The position numbers were made by a program, and so were the translations under genes. From contig NZ_AP018694.1 in assembly GCF_009689585.1 (NCBI RefSeq), positions 2,991,001 to 3,055,000 of the forward strand: a DNA stretch of 64,000 bases. Reading direction: 5' to 3'. Source of the DNA: Aquipluma nitroreducens (GTDB lineage Bacteria > Bacteroidota > Bacteroidia > Bacteroidales > Prolixibacteraceae). The notes under the pieces are model-generated. The model was not told the DNA's origin. It made no database searches and was given only the letters and a program-made list of their open reading frames with translations. Every line of letters begins with the position of its first letter. Within the stretch, counting starts at the first letter, position 1. This document shows, in pieces, positions 35,280 to 64,000 of this stretch.

Positions 35280-35581
35280 TTAATTCCCTTCATTTTCTAT
35301 CTTTTAAAGCTTATTTGAACGGATTAGAGCGAGACCTACAAGGTTGGGGGGGGGAATATATACTTTTGTAGGAAATTTAATTCCAATGGAAGGTATTTCA
35401 CCCGAATGGAAGTACGAAGTATTCCGGCGTAAAGATCAACTCGAACATGCAAAAATTCAGTTAAAAAGAGAATTTGTTGAAAAAAGCAATTGAACACTGT
35501 CGAAACTAAGACAGAAGAATTTGTTTCACAAGTTGAAGGTATTGGCTATTCGCTAAATAGTAAACAGAAGGAAATTAACTA
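35280..35581 (+). pseudogene. Decayed coding remnant containing a G9 tract
   Basis: Coding-like pieces lie in changing frames: AYLNGLERDLQGW before G9 (35346-35354), IYTFVGNLIPMEGISPEWKY after it, and TKTEEFVSQVEGIGYSLNSK after an A6 run near 35482. One added G and one added A would join them. It ends 15 bp before the phosphoesterase gene. No family recognised, and no ATG start is visible. Confidence 0.4.
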
Positions 35582-54534: not shown

Positions 54535-56500
54535 ATGAAGATTATCCATAGAATAGATGACTTTTTGTTTACAATCTTTCCAAACCTAATGGGGGGGGGG
54601 TAAAATACAGATAGTCAACGAGTTAGAAAATTACTATACTTATGGCCCATTTAAACCTAAAATTACTGTTGAAGGTGAATGGGTTACAATCGAAATTGAC
54701 AATCCAACCATACTTTCACAGGAAGCCGATTACCGCAAAACGGTTGCCCTTTGCGAAAAAGGAAAATACTCCGAAGCCAGTCAAATACTCAAAACCTTAA
54801 TTGATAAAAACCCAACCAATTCGGAATACCACCGGATCATGGGTCAAATACGTTCTGATGAAGGTGATCAGGACGAAGCGGTTGATTATTTGATTGATGC
54901 CCTACGCTGGGACTCCAAAAACGGCTGGGCATTGATGATGATGGGCAACATCCTCGCCAAATTCAAAAAAGACATACCAACAGCATTAAAATACTTTGAT
55001 CAGGCATTACTGGCCAACGTCAACGATTATATCAGCCTTACCAATGTTGCGTACCTGATGTTTCAACAAGGAAAAATGGATGAAGCCAAACGTTATTTGG
55101 ATGCCTCATTACAGATCAATCCGAAATACCCCAATACACATTTGATCTTGGGACTGATTGCAGAAAAAGAACAGGATTTGGATTCAGCTTTCAACTATTC
55201 TCTGCAAACCGTTCGTTTGTGTCCAAAAAAAGATGAGTTGTATCAAAATGCGGTTAAACAGACATTTGAATTGGCCAAACAGATCCTGAAGACCGGCAAA
55301 GGTCAAAAGATGGTGGATCAATTCAGGCATAAACTCGAATACGAAGGCGACACCGGAATTGAAATGATTGAAGATGCAGACATAAAGACTGCCGCCAAAT
55401 TTGAACTGGCTGAAAACTTTAACAGGGCGAAACATACGGTTCGTTACAAACCAAACTACGCAGGTGTGGAACATTTAATTCTGCACGAATTGAGCCACCT
55501 GAAACTGATTATTGATGCCCGCAACGAAGGGATTAACCAACTATTTATTTCTACACAATCACAGAAAACAGAATTTCTGAGTAACTATTCCGGACATGCC
55601 ACCAGCTTGATTAAAAAAGGGTTTCCGGAAAAAACCGTCAATGAATTTTTACTTATGCTGTTCGAAGGACTTAACCTTCAGGTTTACAATACACCCATAG
55701 ATTTATTTATTGAAAATACCATCTATCACGAATATCCCGAATTCCGACCTTGGCAGTTTCTCTCGCTGTATTCACTTATCGAACAGGGAATTGCGGCTGT
55801 TACCAACAAACGGATTATTGAGTTGGCACCTAAAGATATTTTGTCGAAAAGCAAGATTTACAACTTGATAAATGCGATGCAATACCGTGATTTGTTTGGT
55901 GTTGATCTGATTATACTGTTTAATGCGACACCGCTTGAATTGAAACAGGCACAAACCTTTTACAACGAATATTTGGAGTACCGAGACGATAAAAAACCGG
56001 GAGAAGAATATGAAATGTTGTTGCATTGGTCTGAAGATTTGAAAGTGGATCGATACTCCGAACTGGTGGGTGAGATTCAGTACCGGAAACGAAGCGACAT
56101 CAATTCTTTCATCAATTCACTCGAAAAAGATCCGCTTGGATTGGATGAACGTGACCCTGTGAAAGAACGTGAACAGCGACGTTTCCAACAATCGCAGGAG
56201 AAGGAAGGTGCGAATATGGCCGTGGTTATGCATATGGTTTCGGCTCTTCAATACTTCCAAAACTTACCCAAAGAGACCATTAAGAAGATAGCCTTCGACA
56301 TTGCTATGCAAGGCACACAGGGTTTCAGTACCGAAAAAAGTGGTTACACGGTCCCGTCTATTCCTGACAAAGAATTTACAGGCTACCAGATTTTAGCTTG
56401 GTATTACGTGAGTTGGGCTATTTCAGCACCCCTTCAACTCGCTGAATTGGGACTGCCCTATGAAAAAGAGTTTGAACTGGCGAAGAAAATGAGGGAATAA
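54535..56500 (+). pseudogene. TPR protein with HExxH motif, frame broken by a G10 tract
   Basis: A natural start at 54535 reads MKIIHRIDDFLFTIFPNL and runs into ATG plus G10, ending in TAA directly after. The next frame continues without stop from the G tract to 56500. With G9 (or G12) the product is 655 residues: TPR units at about 75-200 (EYHRIMGQIRSDEGDQDEAV; ALKYFDQALLANVNDYISLT), then H317-E-L-S-H321 in ILHELSHLKLII, a zinc-peptidase-like motif, and a helical C-terminus. If unshifted, translation could only start at 54839, losing about 100 residues. It has its own terminator and precedes brxA. No known BREX gene matches it; phase-variable accessory gene is my inference. Confidence 0.82.
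54591..54600 (+). other. G10 tract, candidate contingency locus
   Basis: Ten G between well-formed coding sequence in two different frames. Loss of one G, or gain of two, restores the full reading frame of the TPR/HExxH gene. Confidence 0.85.
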
Positions 56501-56544
56501 TCTTCGACAAAAAATTACCATACCGTACTTCCAGGACTGATCTG

Positions 56545-56594
56545 AAAATTGGCGAAGAATGATAATCTGTATTTATCATTCTTCGCCAATTTTT
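56545..56594 (+). terminator. Strong terminator between the TPR gene and brxA
   Basis: AAAATTGGCGAAGAATGATAA pairs almost perfectly with the sequence at 56573-56594 and is followed by T-rich DNA. It makes the TPR gene and the BREX genes separate transcription units. Confidence 0.92.
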
Positions 56595-56598
56595 ATTC

Positions 56599-56628
56599 TT
56601 GACTTAACTATAAAACATTCTATATTTG
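56599..56628 (+). promoter_or_regulatory. Bacteroidota-type promoter of the BREX operon
   Basis: TTG at 56599-56601 and TATATTTG at 56621-56628 are separated by 19 bp and lie about 120 bp before the brxA start, right after the terminator. Confidence 0.75.
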
Positions 56629-56747
56629 TGTATATCAAACAAAAAAGAGAATTATTCATGGAAAGTAAATTTGAATGAATAAATATCAGACAGAGTTTAA
56701 TTTACTCTCCCCATCTAAATAACAACAAACCAACCCGTTCACCTTTA

Positions 56748-57548
56748 ATGACTATACAACCCTACAATAGTGACCTCAATTTTGTCGGAAGTATTCCGAA
56801 CTACGATTTGCTTTTTCTTGCTTTAAGTAAAATTAACCTGGGTGATCGTATCAAGGAAATAGAAGAGATTCTGGTAACACGAAATTTATTCGACTTCAGA
56901 ACCGAAGAAGCCAGAGGACGCTTCTTCCGAATGATAAAATCTACCATATTCAATACCTATTCTGAAGAACAAAGCGAATTGCTTGCTTCAATATTTGACG
57001 AGAATTGCAATTTTCAAAACAAAAATATCGTTCTTTTCTGGCAATTATGCTTATCTAACCGTTTGTTCCGTGAGATTTCTGTAAATGTTTATTTGAAAAA
57101 TTATTACGCTGGTCGATCACATCTAAGTGCCCGTGATGTGGAGGATTACATTATGCATCTGAAAGAAACAGATCCGACAATTAAAGAATGGTCCATTAAG
57201 ACGATTATACCGGTAGCATCAAAATACTTGACCATCCTTAAGAAACTGAATCTGCTGGATGGTGCAGCAAAAAAACAAATTCTACCAGTTACTATTGACA
57301 ATAACACCATGGTGTTGTTTGTTTATTTGATTAAATCGATTAATCCGGATAATTTTAACTTCCTTAATTCGGAATATTTTCAATTGTCATTGATGAGTAG
57401 GGATACCTTTTTAAGTTTTGCCAAAAAGGTTGGGAACATGAGTTTTTGGGATATGACATTTGATGGTACTGCATTAAAATTTACCTTAAAGCAAAAACCT
57501 AACAACATAGCCAATGCCCTATTCAACCGAACACAGACGAAAATTTAA
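56748..57548 (+). CDS. brxA: BREX protein BrxA (DUF1819)
   Basis: 266 residues of the DUF1819 family: YNSDLNFVGSIPNYDLLFLA at the front, then the NusB-like helical core and the C-terminal winged-helix region (TLKQKPNNIANALF). BrxA is a small DNA-binding protein encoded first in type 1 BREX loci. Its end overlaps brxB by 35 bp, which implies translational coupling. Confidence 0.93.
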   Translation: MTIQPYNSDLNFVGSIPNYDLLFLALSKINLGDRIKEIEEILVTRNLFDFRTEEARGRFFRMIKSTIFNTYSEEQSELLASIFDENCNFQNKNIVLFWQLCLSNRLFREISVNVYLKNYYAGRSHLSARDVEDYIMHLKETDPTIKEWSIKTIIPVASKYLTILKKLNLLDGAAKKQILPVTIDNNTMVLFVYLIKSINPDNFNFLNSEYFQLSLMSRDTFLSFAKKVGNMSFWDMTFDGTALKFTLKQKPNNIANALFNRTQTKI

Positions 57549-58071
57549 TGACCTCATAGCTCAACTGAGTGCTGAGAACAGGCATAAAATCAAATCAAAA
57601 GCCAATGGTGGAAATACGATACTGTTTGTGTATCCTCCGGAGGATGAAGAAAAGTATCTCGATGAAGCTTTGATCTTACTGGAAGATGCTTCATTCATTG
57701 ATCTCAATCAATTACTCATCACTTACATCGATCAGATTGGACTTAATGATTTCAAAGAGTTCTATGAAGCTTATGAAACAAACAGGTCAGAGGTATTTAA
57801 AAAAAATAGGATTGATGAAAGAGAAGATTTATTCGATATGATCATTGCGGAAATCGGAAAGGCATACCTTGCCAATCAGATTCCTGTATTAATCCATACG
57901 GGTGCGCTTTATGGAACTGGCATCGAGAACGATAACATTATGGCAGACCCGATAATCATCAGACATAAAATACCTTTGGTTGTTTTTTATCCTGCCACCC
58001 ACAAAAATGGCAACCTCTTTTTCTTAAATGTAAAACCAGCTTCAAAATACCGTTGCAATTTAATCGACTAA
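57514..58071 (+). CDS. brxB: BREX protein BrxB (DUF1788)
   Basis: 185 residues of the DUF1788 family: ILFVYPPEDEEKYLDEALIL near the front and the C-terminal IRHKIPLVVFYPATHKNGNL, which is the family hallmark. The start at 57514 lies within brxA; no later Met gives a better N-terminus. BrxB is required for BREX defence, but its biochemical role is unknown. Confidence 0.93.
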   Translation: MPYSTEHRRKFNDLIAQLSAENRHKIKSKANGGNTILFVYPPEDEEKYLDEALILLEDASFIDLNQLLITYIDQIGLNDFKEFYEAYETNRSEVFKKNRIDEREDLFDMIIAEIGKAYLANQIPVLIHTGALYGTGIENDNIMADPIIIRHKIPLVVFYPATHKNGNLFFLNVKPASKYRCNLID

Positions 58072-58073
58072 CT

Positions 58074-61000
58074 ATGACACTGATTAAAGATATATTGACC
58101 CTCGATATCAACGAGGATATTAAAAATGTAATCGACCTTGAAGACCAATCGGAAAACGAAATTCAGTCGGAAATTGAGTCTTACATCCTGACCGATAACC
58201 TGGGGAAACACCTTTCATCATTCATCAATCAGTATAATTCCAACATCAAGGAAACCGGAGTTTGGATATCAGGATTCTATGGATCAGGAAAATCTTACTT
58301 TGGAAAGATGATGGGTTATTTGCTTTCCGATCAGTTAATAAACGGCACATCTGCACGTGAACGGTTTATTTTGCGACTGAGCGGACTGAAAGATCACAAC
58401 TTCCTTGAAAATCAGATTCGCAGCTTAGATGCCCATAAAACAAAAGTAATTTTCCTCGACATCGCCAAACAGGACACCACAAACGGGCTGTGCTATACCT
58501 TATTTAAGAATTTCCTGAGTACGCTGGGTTTCCTTCCCAATGTGTACGGATATATGGAGTACCTGATGTGGCTAGATGATGAACATGAGGAATTTAAACA
58601 AAAAGTTCTTGAATATTCAGGCAAGGATTGGCAAACGATCATGAAAAATGCCATGAAAGTTCCTACTGCTGTAAAACGGGTCTTGACTGGTTATAAGTTT
58701 TCGGAAGATGAATACAAAGAAACGATAGACCATCTGAACAATACCATCAGACAATTCTCTGCTACCGATTTTCGCAATGAACTGGAAAAATACATTGCCA
58801 AAGTTAGCGACGAAAAATTGGTTTTCATTTTTGATGAAGCCAGTGAAGCCCTGGCTCAAAAGAAATTTGACCTGATGGAGTTGGAAGGTTTAAGCGAATC
58901 TCTTTCAAATTCTTCATTGGCCAGTAAAGTTTGGACCCTGGCTATTGCACAGGAAAAGCTGGATGATGTGATCAATAATTCAAATGTCAATAAAAGCCTG
59001 CTAACCAAAGTGACCGATCGTTTTAAAACAAAGCTTCACCTTGAATCAACCGAAGTGGATAAAATTATCCGGTTTAGGTTATTGCAAAAAAAGGATGACG
59101 CTTTTGAAAATCTGAAAATACATTATGCCAAAAGTGAAGGTCAATTGGCTGATGCAAGCAACCTGAAAGCAAGTTTTCAAACTCGTGTTGAATCTGCTGA
59201 AGAATTTGCAACCTATTACCCATTTCACAAATATCAGTTCAGGTTATTGCAAAATTTCCTATTTAGCTCAAAAGCCTTGTCTTCAACACAGGTTGCAGCA
59301 AGGGGGATGATCATTACAACATTTGATATCATTCGGAAACAATTGGCTGATGTTCCTTTGCATCAGTTTGCAACTTCTTCCGATGTTTGCCGGCAAGCCC
59401 AGACTGCCCCTCCGTCCGAATTGGTGAATCGCTATGACAATGCTGATGCAATACTTGGAACATCTGCACTGGAAGGCCGGAAAATTCTTGAAGTAATTCA
59501 CTTTCTAACAGAATCGGACCTGGTTAAAGCTTCCACCGAAAATATTACGAAAACATACATTCGCGACCTGAATGACTATTACAAGATTAAGCCGTTGATG
59601 GATGATGCGCTTCAAACTTTAGTCGAAGCGAAGATTCTTTTACTCACTAATGGTGAATATAAAATTACCTCCGATCTGGAGGGAAAACTATTGGATGAAA
59701 TGAAAGATTTCCCGGTAGAACTCTTCAATAAGAAACGTGATTTCATTGATTTTTTAAAGAAGTTCCAACCATTAAGGTCATTAGGTACGGTAACTGATGG
59801 TACCAATGCGTATAGTTTTAATATTTCAACTGATCAGGATGATGAAATTGTTGCTTCATCCAATAAAAAGTTAAAGTTAGCGGTTACCGGGCTTTTCAAT
59901 ATCAACGATGAATATCGCGATTATGTGGAGCGCATCAAACTCGAAAACCAATCCAACAAAGAAACCATCATTCTGATTCCGGACAATAAGGATTACAACC
60001 GGATTGACACCTTGCTTACTGATGTAAAGCGGTTTAAATTCATGGATGAAAAATACGCTAATGATGTTGATTCCAACATTCGGCAAATCGTCAAGGATTT
60101 TAATCTGATACGCGAAGAAAAGGAAAAGGAATTAACCACATTAATCCATAAAGCTTATCTCAACGGCTCGTGTATTTATTTGTTTGACGAGAACCTGCTG
60201 AACGAAGATGCTTTCAGAAGTACCATTACAGAACTGCAAAAAAAACTGATTCGAAATGTTTATACCAAACGCCTTTCTGAACAATTATCCGAATCAATTG
60301 CCCCTAAAGTAATTGCAGAAACACAAAACGAAAAACTGCACAAATATTTCAGCGGCAATGACTATAAGTTTTTTGATGCCACCGGCAATTTTATTGGCGA
60401 CCATCTGAAAGTAGTTGAAGAAGTTACCTCCAGAATTAAATCAACTTTTGCCGACGGGAAAACGCTTGAATCAGAATTATTACTTCCACCAACCGGGTAT
60501 AGTTATGGCACGGTAGCAACCACTTTGGCAGTACTTTTCAGGGCTGGCAAACTGGTGGCTAAATACAATGGGCAGGACCTTTTTTCATACAAAGACAAAC
60601 AGGTTGCCGATATTTTTGCAACTTCCAAAAATTTCCAAAAGGCCTCATTCAAGTCCATTTCCAAATCACTTTCAGCAGCTCAGAAAAATGAGATGGTCCA
60701 GATTCTGCACGACCTTCAATACAAAGCCAAAACAAATGAACAGGTTGATTGGAATACCAATGATTTTGAATTGGTAAAGGCAACCGGAAAGCTGGCTGAA
60801 CATTACCTTTCAATCATTAAATATTCGATACAGAAAGTAGAACACTACCAGAAGTTTTTCCCTGGAATTGAAGACGATAAAGCAACTTTAACGCTATTTA
60901 CTTCATTGCTGACCGAAAATAATTACATCGAAAAGGCTGAATATTTTATTCAGGAAGCAATTGCATTTAAGGCAACTGTAAAGAGTATCGAAAAAACGGA

Positions 61001-61709
61001 AAAGTTCATCGAAAAAAACTTACCGAAAGCTCACGGATTAAGGCGATTTGTTGACCAACTCACCATCGAACTGAATAAATCGGGAGAGCTGAAAGACACT
61101 CTAAAAAGTCAAATTGATCAATTCAACCTGGCCTATAATGACAATCTGCGTGACCGTTTTTCAGAGATTATGGATATTGCCCAGAATATTCGGGACAATT
61201 ACTTTAACCTGATGACCAAAGCCAATGAACTTATGGCTCAGAAATACACACCAATCAAAACTCAGGCTGAAGAATTGCTGAAGACAATTGGCAAGTTTCC
61301 GGAAGAACCAAATAAAAAGAACATCATCGACACGAAAGCAATCATCAGTTATTCACAGCAACGGATTTTTCCATCGGTTTCGCTCGAATTTCATATTGCC
61401 TGCAAAAACAGCAATTTTTCGCTTTCCGAGATTCGAAATTACATCGAATTGGCTTCCAATCAGGAAACTAAAGTCTTCATGATTCAAAATAATATCGTTG
61501 AGCAAATTCCCGAATTGCCAAAATACCCAACCAAAGAAGATCCGAAACAAGAGGCTCAGGAACCGACTCCAAAACCACCCCGAAAAGTGAAGTTATCCAT
61601 TCACAATGGCAAAATGACGGTAAAAGAATACCGGAATATTCTGGCTGAACAGATTAAACAATTGAGCGGCATGGATAACAACGATGAAATTGACCTGACC
61701 ATTAATTAA
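58074..61709 (+). CDS. brxC: BREX ATPase BrxC
   Basis: About 1211 residues from the ATG at 58074 (MTLIKDILTLDINEDIKNVI), two bases after the brxB stop; an in-frame ATG at 58053 is less likely. Walker A GFYGSGKS at 67-74, Walker B VFIFDEAS with Asp254, a long helical C-terminus, and a short Pro-rich linker before a C-terminal globule (RKVKLSIHNGKM). BrxC is the large AAA-type ATPase common to all BREX loci and likely forms the core complex with PglX and PglZ. Length is normal for type 1. Confidence 0.95.
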   Translation: MTLIKDILTLDINEDIKNVIDLEDQSENEIQSEIESYILTDNLGKHLSSFINQYNSNIKETGVWISGFYGSGKSYFGKMMGYLLSDQLINGTSARERFILRLSGLKDHNFLENQIRSLDAHKTKVIFLDIAKQDTTNGLCYTLFKNFLSTLGFLPNVYGYMEYLMWLDDEHEEFKQKVLEYSGKDWQTIMKNAMKVPTAVKRVLTGYKFSEDEYKETIDHLNNTIRQFSATDFRNELEKYIAKVSDEKLVFIFDEASEALAQKKFDLMELEGLSESLSNSSLASKVWTLAIAQEKLDDVINNSNVNKSLLTKVTDRFKTKLHLESTEVDKIIRFRLLQKKDDAFENLKIHYAKSEGQLADASNLKASFQTRVESAEEFATYYPFHKYQFRLLQNFLFSSKALSSTQVAARGMIITTFDIIRKQLADVPLHQFATSSDVCRQAQTAPPSELVNRYDNADAILGTSALEGRKILEVIHFLTESDLVKASTENITKTYIRDLNDYYKIKPLMDDALQTLVEAKILLLTNGEYKITSDLEGKLLDEMKDFPVELFNKKRDFIDFLKKFQPLRSLGTVTDGTNAYSFNISTDQDDEIVASSNKKLKLAVTGLFNINDEYRDYVERIKLENQSNKETIILIPDNKDYNRIDTLLTDVKRFKFMDEKYANDVDSNIRQIVKDFNLIREEKEKELTTLIHKAYLNGSCIYLFDENLLNEDAFRSTITELQKKLIRNVYTKRLSEQLSESIAPKVIAETQNEKLHKYFSGNDYKFFDATGNFIGDHLKVVEEVTSRIKSTFADGKTLESELLLPPTGYSYGTVATTLAVLFRAGKLVAKYNGQDLFSYKDKQVADIFATSKNFQKASFKSISKSLSAAQKNEMVQILHDLQYKAKTNEQVDWNTNDFELVKATGKLAEHYLSIIKYSIQKVEHYQKFFPGIEDDKATLTLFTSLLTENNYIEKAEYFIQEAIAFKATVKSIEKTEKFIEKNLPKAHGLRRFVDQLTIELNKSGELKDTLKSQIDQFNLAYNDNLRDRFSEIMDIAQNIRDNYFNLMTKANELMAQKYTPIKTQAEELLKTIGKFPEEPNKKNIIDTKAIISYSQQRIFPSVSLEFHIACKNSNFSLSEIRNYIELASNQETKVFMIQNNIVEQIPELPKYPTKEDPKQEAQEPTPKPPRKVKLSIHNGKMTVKEYRNILAEQIKQLSGMDNNDEIDLTIN

Positions 61710-61717
61710 GAATAGCA

Positions 61718-64000
61718 ATGAAACTAACCGACCACGTAAACCACATACGCTCTTTAATTTATAAGGCATATAACAACCGTTTTGCACGGTTGGGATTGGG
61801 AGAAAAGAATGAGCAGGATATTTCGTTGATTCCCGAAGAATTACATTCGTTGCGGGATCAGTTGGATGAAATGCTCGAAAACCACATTGGTGAAACCGGC
61901 AGCTATAAGTTGGCACGTGAAAAAGCATTGGACGAACTTTCCTTTACACTCTTTAACCGGATTGCTGCCATAAAGGTGATGGAAGCACGACATTTATTTC
62001 CGGAGATAATTACCAAACGTACAGAACATGGCGACCGCTCATTTGCCCATAAAGCATGGCTGGAGCTCAATCCCAATGGCCGCAATCTGGAACTGGAAGG
62101 ACTGGAATTCTTTTTGGAACATGAGTTCGATAAACTGAGCGAAAAGATGCAGTTGTTTGGAAAGGATCATCCGTATGCCTTGATGCCTTTTACGATTGAC
62201 CTGAACGATATTATTGACGCTTTTAATGCGGTAGAACAAGATAAGGATACAGGAGCCGATACCTGGCAAAGCGATGATATTTTGGGCTGGTTGTACGAAA
62301 GCTACAACAGCCTGAAAAAGAAAGAACACAAAGACAGCGGCAAAAAAACGGAGTTCGACAAAGTATCACTGCAATCACAGGTTTACACGCCCCGTTGGGT
62401 AGTGAAGTTTTTGGTGGACAACTCATTGGGAAAGCTCTATTTGGAAATGTTCCCCAACTCGCAGATCAAAGAGAAATATGCCATTGCCAATGCACCGCAA
62501 ACCCGTGTGCGCGAAAAGAAACCGCTGCACGAAATTAAACTGATCGACCCGGCACCCGGATCCGGAAACTTCCTGCTTTATGCTTTCGACCTGTTTTACG
62601 ATTTGTACACCGACCAGATTGATAACTACGGCGCCGATTACGACGAAGAGGAAATTCCTGCCCTGATCATTGAAAACAACCTGTATGGCATTGATCTCGA
62701 CGACCGCGCAGTACAGTTGGCTCAAATGGGTTTGTTTATTAAGGCCTTAACCAGACAGCGAGGTTTTAAAATGAGGCACGTGAATGTTGTTTCGTCTGAT
62801 TTTTATTTACCCAAATATGCAGATATAAAACTCTTCTTTGAAGAAGGTGCCAACTTTGACCAGGCTCAAAAAGAGCTGATGGAGGAAGTGTGGACCGACC
62901 TGCAACAAGCTTACCGCTTTGGTTCGTTAATAAAAGTAGGTGAACGTGTGAATGAACGATTAGAGAAACTGGAAAAGAAAAATCATAAAAATGAAACACT
63001 CAACATGTTTGAAACACAAAACATTGTTGATTTTCAAATCTTTCGAAACGAATTTTTCGCCAAACTAGAACAGGCAGTTGCTCGTTATGCCCAAAGTAAA
63101 AACAACAACTTCCTGAAAACCAAAGCAAACGATGCATTAACCTTCCTGAAGATATTAGCTAATAAATATGATGTTGCCGTAGCAAACCCGCCTTATACCG
63201 ATAGTGCTGACTTTGGCCCAGAGCTTAAATCGTTTATTGACACCAATTATAAAAGTCCATGGAAGTTCAATATAAATTTGTACTCAACTTTCATTAAACG
63301 CTGCTATGATTTAACGAGTAATGACGGCAAAATGGCTTTGATCCATCCTCACACCTTCATGTTTATTAAATCATTTGAAGATGTACGCCAATTTATGATT
63401 GAAAAAACCCATATCGATATGATGGTTGATTTGGGTTTAGATCGTGTAAACTTGTTTGGCCCAGGCATACTTTTGGATGCTACTTTTTATGTCCTTTCCA
63501 AGACTAGCTCTATTGAGAAAGGTGTTTATTTTAATCTGACGACTAATCTTCAAGAAAAATTTAAAAAGGAACAATTTCTAAAAGCACTAACTGATTTTAT
63601 TGTCAATGAACCTAACAATAGAGTTTATAAATTGGACCAAACCAAACTCGGAATAATCAAATCTAGTCCATTTATCTATTGGATTTCGGATGCATTTAGG
63701 GAGAAGTTTGGATATAATTCAATTGGAGAGATTGCAAATGTTGCTCAAGGTGCATCTACTGGGAAAAATGAAAGATTTGTAAGATTCTGGTGGGAAATTA
63801 AAAGAAATGAAATTTCATTGAATTATAATGAGGATAGAAAAAGATATATTTTTTATTCTAAAGGTGGAGTATCGAATAAATGGTATGGAAATATTTGGCT
63901 TGTTATAGATTGGAATAATGATGGAGATTTAATGCTAAACTATGGGAAATGTGCATTAAGGAATAAGCAGCATTATTTTAAAGAAGGAATAACTTGCTCT
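61718..64000 (+). CDS. pglX: BREX adenine methyltransferase PglX (BrxX), N-terminal 761 residues
   Basis: Starts MKLTDHVNHIRSLIYKAYNN 8 bp after brxC. SLQSQVYTPRWVVKFLVDNS is motif X, DPAPGSGNFLLYAF (Asp277) is motif I, and ANPPYTDS (Asn490-Tyr493) is motif IV of N6-adenine methyltransferases. The target recognition part begins before the window ends (EIANVAQGASTGKNERF). PglX marks host DNA at a non-palindromic site and is needed for self/non-self discrimination. No homopolymer tract is seen in the visible part. pglZ and brxL would be expected next, beyond the window. Confidence 0.96.
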   Translation, partial: MKLTDHVNHIRSLIYKAYNNRFARLGLGEKNEQDISLIPEELHSLRDQLDEMLENHIGETGSYKLAREKALDELSFTLFNRIAAIKVMEARHLFPEIITKRTEHGDRSFAHKAWLELNPNGRNLELEGLEFFLEHEFDKLSEKMQLFGKDHPYALMPFTIDLNDIIDAFNAVEQDKDTGADTWQSDDILGWLYESYNSLKKKEHKDSGKKTEFDKVSLQSQVYTPRWVVKFLVDNSLGKLYLEMFPNSQIKEKYAIANAPQTRVREKKPLHEIKLIDPAPGSGNFLLYAFDLFYDLYTDQIDNYGADYDEEEIPALIIENNLYGIDLDDRAVQLAQMGLFIKALTRQRGFKMRHVNVVSSDFYLPKYADIKLFFEEGANFDQAQKELMEEVWTDLQQAYRFGSLIKVGERVNERLEKLEKKNHKNETLNMFETQNIVDFQIFRNEFFAKLEQAVARYAQSKNNNFLKTKANDALTFLKILANKYDVAVANPPYTDSADFGPELKSFIDTNYKSPWKFNINLYSTFIKRCYDLTSNDGKMALIHPHTFMFIKSFEDVRQFMIEKTHIDMMVDLGLDRVNLFGPGILLDATFYVLSKTSSIEKGVYFNLTTNLQEKFKKEQFLKALTDFIVNEPNNRVYKLDQTKLGIIKSSPFIYWISDAFREKFGYNSIGEIANVAQGASTGKNERFVRFWWEIKRNEISLNYNEDRKRYIFYSKGGVSNKWYGNIWLVIDWNNDGDLMLNYGKCALRNKQHYFKEGITCS

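Follow-up and report, generated by a model that had tools for sequence, protein, structure and literature searches.

Phase variation of the Pgl system of Streptomyces coelicolor has been attributed to a G tract in pglX, which had contracted from 8 to 7 G in two of three pglZ-deleted strains (PMC4365076). For BREX, PMC6326788 mentions a homopolymeric tract in brxX, and both this paper and PMC9122589 mention G-tract switching of the pglX type. In an Hpy300X-like type III methyltransferase of Helicobacter pylori, a run of nine G leads to a stop and a one-base change restores the frame (PMC12003011). Phase-variable type I and type III systems have been noted (PMC12707154), and homopolymers within genes have been argued to be a general regulatory device (PMC2831843).

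The DNA analysed here, referred to as the window, is a stretch of 64,000 nucleotides from the genome of Aquipluma nitroreducens. It contains a G tract in the coding sequence of a gene that lies upstream of a BREX operon and encodes a protein with TPR repeats and an HExxH motif. The ATG at 54535 opens MKIIHRIDDFLFTIFPNLMGGG, 22 residues that lead up to the tract, and the G run was found on direct reading to be exactly 10 long. The initial annotation had described this start, the G10 run with an immediate stop behind it, and an open frame of about 630 codons past the tract. Direct reading confirmed all of these; the second frame opens 3′ of a TAA at 54587-54589, has 635 codons and ends with a stop at 56498-56500. 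The first listed start in this downstream frame is the ATG at 54839. The range given in the initial annotation, 54535-54840, reaches from the N-terminal segment across the tract to the first internal ATG, and has to be extended to 56500 to include the whole gene. The features are collected in the table below.

Features of the tract-bearing gene and of its BREX neighbours, in window coordinates
Feature	Position	Strand	Basis or remark
5′ coding segment of the TPR/HExxH gene	54535..54590	+	conserved N-terminal peptide MKIIHRIDDFLFTIFPNL.., in frame in tractless homologues too
G10 tract, proposed slipped-strand switch	54591..54600	+	29 of 80 loci (best 80 of 90 relatives) have at least 7 consecutive G at the corresponding place
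TAA stop directly 3′ of the tract (assembled, out-of-frame state)	54601..54603	+	direct read
Main part of this gene, in the second frame, with TPR repeats followed by the HExxH domain	54593..56500	+	635 codons and stop
TPR region (approximate)	54929..55255	+	Pfam matches within residues 31-139 of the ORF from 54839
HELSH (HExxH) motif	55484..55498	+	direct read
Terminator-like hairpin between the TPR/HExxH gene and brxA	56546..56592	+	20 pairs, T-rich tail
Bacteroidota-type promoter-like site TTG-N19-TATATTTG	56599..56628	+	upstream of brxA
brxA	56748..57548	+	family scan
brxB	57514..58071	+	family scan
brxC	58053..61709	+	family scan; 1218 codons, unbroken
pglX	61718..64000	+	runs past the window end; 1235 aa, unbroken

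To compare the locus with its relatives, genome contigs were scanned by alignment and the best 80 of 90 relatives were kept as loci. A locus was counted as a carrier if a run of at least 7 G follows its N-terminal motif and precedes the downstream match; L084, with a G8 run in frame 53 nt past the match start, was accordingly classed as tractless. L090 and L117 are identical to the contigs of G128 and G020, while L070 corresponds to G075 and L094 to G050 in the stretches that were compared; each was counted once. The homologues of G075 and G050 lack the tract, and the same N-terminal peptide there continues in frame into the same downstream protein. In G020, from the same genus as the window, the homologue has G9 and stays in frame as far as its contig extends; in G128, which belongs to a different family of the order, a G8 puts it out of frame. 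Tractless homologues with an unrelated N-terminus had been named in the initial annotation as a finding that would speak against the switch. The N-terminal motif was in frame in all 41 tractless loci in which it could be recognised, out of 51 tractless loci in total; of the other ten, three begin at a contig edge (L060, L095, L107) and seven are without a recognisable motif (L099, L118, L121, L122, L123, L125, L126). As tractless homologues join the same N-terminal peptide to the same downstream protein, the two frames of the window are parts of one gene. The tract encodes glycines that are placed in a coil by the model of the homologue L049 (residues 19-22), and the number of glycines in this predicted coil varies among in-frame homologues. 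In many carrier genomes, a gene with such an internal tract may be called a pseudogene by annotation or be given a start that is too late.

The tract is present in 29 of the 80 loci (best 80 of 90 relatives) at lengths of 7-13 G, 16 in frame and 13 out; by record title, all of these carriers except L066 (in frame) and L071 (out) are MAGs or uncultured, and their homopolymer counts may err. The in-frame carriers comprise one G7, four G8, eight G9, two G11 and one G13, and the out-of-frame carriers one G7, three G8, one G9, seven G10 and one G11, and all three frame classes are found. Outside the window, translation of the out-of-frame carriers would stop directly 3′ of the tract in 10 of 13 and a few codons later in the other three. 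When the window is included, 16 of 30 carriers are in frame, a share that exceeds one third (binomial p 0.03, rows not independent), and the frame is disrupted in 14 of the 30 compared with none of the 41 tractless loci that have the motif (Fisher 6e-7, rows not independent). Comparison of tract length with related genomes, as proposed in the initial annotation, showed that length and frame differ even between close relatives. The window (G10, out) and L117 of G020 (G9, in) are 94.1% identical over 540 nt; L119 (G9, out) and L059 (G13, in) are 97.0% identical over 702 nt. One Flavobacterium assembly (UBA5153) has two copies of the gene, L056 and L074, both with G11, one in frame and the other out; these copies adjoin different systems.

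Long G runs are rare in these genomes. That of the window, a single contig of 5.71 Mb, has four G/C runs of at least 8, of which the G10 is the longest. Overlapping matches to G8 number five in the window, three of them inside the G10 run, against a mean of 0.5 and a maximum of 3 in shuffled sequence, and the G10 run exceeds chance expectation. In the 1.26 Mb that span the best 80 of 90 loci there are 29 G/C runs of at least 8, and 27 of them are at the tract site; the remaining two are in L084, elsewhere in the same gene, and in L110, far away. In the 30 carriers, 89 of the 620 Gly codons outside the tract are GGG, and G/C runs elsewhere in the covered part of the gene do not exceed 5. The window has a second long run, a G9 at 35346-35354, which lies by eye in a short open stretch (..RIRARPTRLGGGIYTFVGNLIPMEGISPEWKYEVFRRKDQLEHAKIQLK..) and inside no listed ORF of at least 80 aa; it is possibly a remnant of another gene with its own tract. 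Elsewhere in the same genome, at about position 1501 of L040 (G000:C1:457893), another run of nine reads as C9 on the coding strand and lies inside the span of an 847 aa open frame that resembles a secreted protein.

The copies that are out of frame at the tract appear to be otherwise intact. Their downstream frame is full length in 10 of 13 loci and in the window and reaches the contig end in the other three, and no second break was found in the covered sequence. dN/dS was estimated for 18 pairs chosen by hand from near pairs, with high dS in several: it was 0.04-0.19 in six of seven pairs with both members out of frame (the seventh was saturated), 0.05-0.10 in all three pairs with both in frame, 0.06-0.21 in three tractless pairs and 0.05-0.19 in four of five mixed pairs. 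For L059 and L119, the closest in/out pair, dN/dS was 0.51 across 229 codons that have diverged little. A tree was built from 73 rows, eight rows under 450 residues being excluded. The out-of-frame label requires 11 changes on it for 11 rows, against a shuffled mean of 10.3, and is thus scattered; the tractless label clusters, with 8 changes against a shuffled mean of 21.6.

The G10 tract is most probably a contingency locus, at which slippage switches a single TPR/HExxH accessory gene of about 655 residues on and off. The homopolymer is inside the frame near its 5′ end and its length sets the frame, length and frame vary between near relatives, and the OFF copies are mostly under constraint. 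The on/off switch proposed in the initial annotation is therefore supported by the G10/G9 difference from the 94.1% identical relative, by the 13 of 29 other carriers that are out of frame and by their unbroken downstream frames. Slipped-strand mispairing during replication would change the tract length, and this change would shift the reading frame and turn translation of the protein on or off. The assembled state would be OFF, a 22-residue peptide being made before translation ends directly 3′ of the tract. The length would be expected to switch within a population, and the protein may license or modulate the neighbouring defence genes, here those of BREX; its location suggests that it is accessory to the adjacent system, which it would activate or restrain.

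Three other explanations were weighed against the switch. The break could be an assembly error, the true count in the window being in frame and the gene ON. The G10 exceeds every other G run in the genome, runs of this kind are difficult to count, and the relative with 94% identity has G9 in frame. The tract itself is nevertheless real, since it occurs at the same site in 29 of the best 80 of 90 loci, and 13 of these 29 carriers are out of frame while breaks elsewhere are few (4 candidates in the 80); the neighbouring brxC and pglX are also unbroken. A miscount in the window is thus quite unlikely, and assembly error is unlikely as a general cause of the frame breaks. A heritable on/off switch, and not sequencing error, is indicated because distant relatives vary in tract length and nearly half of them are out of frame; a miscount of the window G10 alone could leave the switch of the family standing. 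Long G runs can also be slippery, and transcriptional slippage or ribosomal frameshifting could yield some full-length protein from out-of-frame copies, so that the tract would set the level of expression and not an on/off state. The unbroken downstream frames of the out-of-frame copies fit this explanation as well. A fixed programmed shift, however, would favour one length and one frame, whereas lengths from 7 to 13 and all three frame classes are found, and tractless homologues need no shift. Productive slippage is therefore unlikely as the main role of the tract, and it may act as a leak on top of the switch.

The out-of-frame tracts could instead mark pseudogenes of a dispensable gene. A few homologues are indeed broken elsewhere. 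The downstream frame is shorter than 600 codons and uncut by a contig end in 10 of the best 80 of 90 loci; four of these were judged by eye to be candidates for real breaks (L106, L110, L114, L120), and the other six start at a contig edge, belong to slightly shorter relatives or are without the N-terminus. L110 is an in-frame carrier, yet broken elsewhere, and a copy on a Marivirga plasmid is split into three matching pieces, where the annotation has two short ORFs. Against decay, the out-of-frame copies are without a further break in the covered sequence, most dN/dS values are well below 1 and the out-of-frame tips do not cluster on the tree. Decay is thus a highly improbable explanation of the out-of-frame state.

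The nature of the switched protein was addressed by family and fold comparisons. TPR repeats score above the Pfam cut-off in the ORF from 54839, and structural TPR matches were obtained for the L049 model. HExxH is present in 70 of 70 rows of at least 540 residues, window included, and H62, E63, H66 and E138 are invariant in 48 rows; E138 may be the metal-ligand Glu. An HExxH motif with a downstream Glu is a likeness to HExxH metallopeptidases (minigluzincins, SPRTN, LTA4 hydrolase). The C-terminal domain gave no credible Pfam match and no Foldseek match at E <= 0.001, and in a further fold comparison unrelated helical proteins outscored the metallopeptidase rows. For these reasons the name protease is not established, and the protein is possibly a metalloprotease. 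Brx/Pgl family models gave no match for the window ORF from 54839 or for the L049 homologue, and the protein is not a BREX core component.

Downstream of the TPR/HExxH gene in the window, the BREX genes follow in the order brxA, brxB, brxC, pglX, further genes, pglZ and brxL. Downstream of the window, in L036 (1419-5266), this BREX locus has between pglX and pglZ a PDC-M59-like pair, of which one member contains a Fic domain, together with genes for a protein kinase and an Mrr-type nuclease. Folding of 56500-56640 gave a z of -6.2, and a hairpin search of a 4.1-kb stretch found four such sites against a shuffled mean of 3.3. The promoter-like site fits the Bacteroidota promoter consensus; as there are 18 matches to this consensus on both strands of the window, it is only suggestive. 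Since the terminator-like hairpin and the promoter-like site precede brxA, the switch in the window probably alters this protein alone, and the OFF state would probably remove the TPR/HExxH protein without silencing BREX. The gene and its neighbour overlap or abut in most MazG-type loci, so that polarity on downstream genes is possible there, and OFF could lower their expression where the neighbour is a MazG-like gene.

Partner classes were assigned from blastp clusters within 9.5 kb, one class per locus and BREX first, with family scans on representatives; cluster 13 (HsdR-like), the basis for L064 and L124, was outside these scans. Among the best 80 of 90 loci, the partner is an SLFN-type helicase in 33, with a MazG-cluster gene among the next same-strand genes in 30 of them; one helicase representative (L032) has a strong SLFN match and another (L066) weak AbiO/PDC matches. 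In the same 80 loci, an AAA_5 and DUF2357-PDDEXK pair is the partner in 8, BREX in 6, type III Mod-like genes in 5, type I-like genes in 5 and type IIG/DrmD-like genes in 4; none of these is seen in 19, in several of them through a contig end. We take the AAA_5 and DUF2357-PDDEXK_7 pair to be McrBC-like. The tract carriers are distributed over the helicase (11), AAA_5/DUF2357 (6), type I-like (3) and type III-like (2) classes, and seven have no partner seen. The tract is absent from all 6 BREX-linked and all 4 IIG-linked loci among the best 80 of 90 relatives, and the window is the only BREX-linked copy with a tract (1 of 7, counting the six loci and the window). The switched gene had been placed in the initial annotation upstream of BREX and apart from pglX; its position outside pglX holds. 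The TPR/HExxH gene is not tied to BREX, which adjoins it in 6 of the best 80 of 90 loci.

The gene is 99.9% identical in L076 and L077, from Flavobacterium omnivorum and Flavobacterium sp. RSP15, and the two share neighbouring clusters (DrmD-like and type IIG-like), which argues for recent transfer. Two plasmids also have copies, and so does a record labelled Microcystis phage Mwe-JY31 (L128, 5899-7917), in which the homologue is one annotated CDS followed by genes for 109 aa and 620 aa, sizes that resemble those of MazG/helicase loci. The family is thus widespread, mobile and defence-associated, and the tract is kept across bacterial families. Tentatively, the gene can be viewed as a portable immunity switch: a mobile, phase-variable, protease-like gene placed before unrelated systems (BREX, MazG/helicase, McrBC-like, type I-like, type III-like), which would move between species, bring its own tract into genomes nearly without other long G runs and randomly decide which cells have the neighbouring system armed.

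Phase variation of the TPR/HExxH family was not found in the open-licence literature among the matches listed. The tract provides a defined site, present also in the isolate Pedobacter puniceum HX-22-1 (L071). Known phase variation in defence concerns DNA-modifying enzymes (PglX, type I and type III systems); the switch described here is in an accessory gene shared by several systems, mostly in Bacteroidota, and could bet-hedge many kinds of immunity. As in the H. pylori Hpy300X-like gene, reading through the G tract ends at a stop, and altering the tract by one base restores the frame; there, however, the switched gene is a methyltransferase, and here it encodes a TPR/HExxH protein. Two out-of-frame copies lie directly upstream of a type III Mod-like gene, assigned by cluster in L048 and by family scan in L074. 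The likeness to S. coelicolor Pgl is that a G tract in a coding sequence of a BREX-type locus changes length. The window pglX has no G/C run of at least 8, and none of the four such runs of the genome is in it. Unlike the Pgl tract, that of the window belongs to an accessory gene which is not part of the BREX core, and this gene family also adjoins other defence systems. What is new is that the switch belongs to a widespread mobile defence-associated family, kept across families and not tied to BREX.
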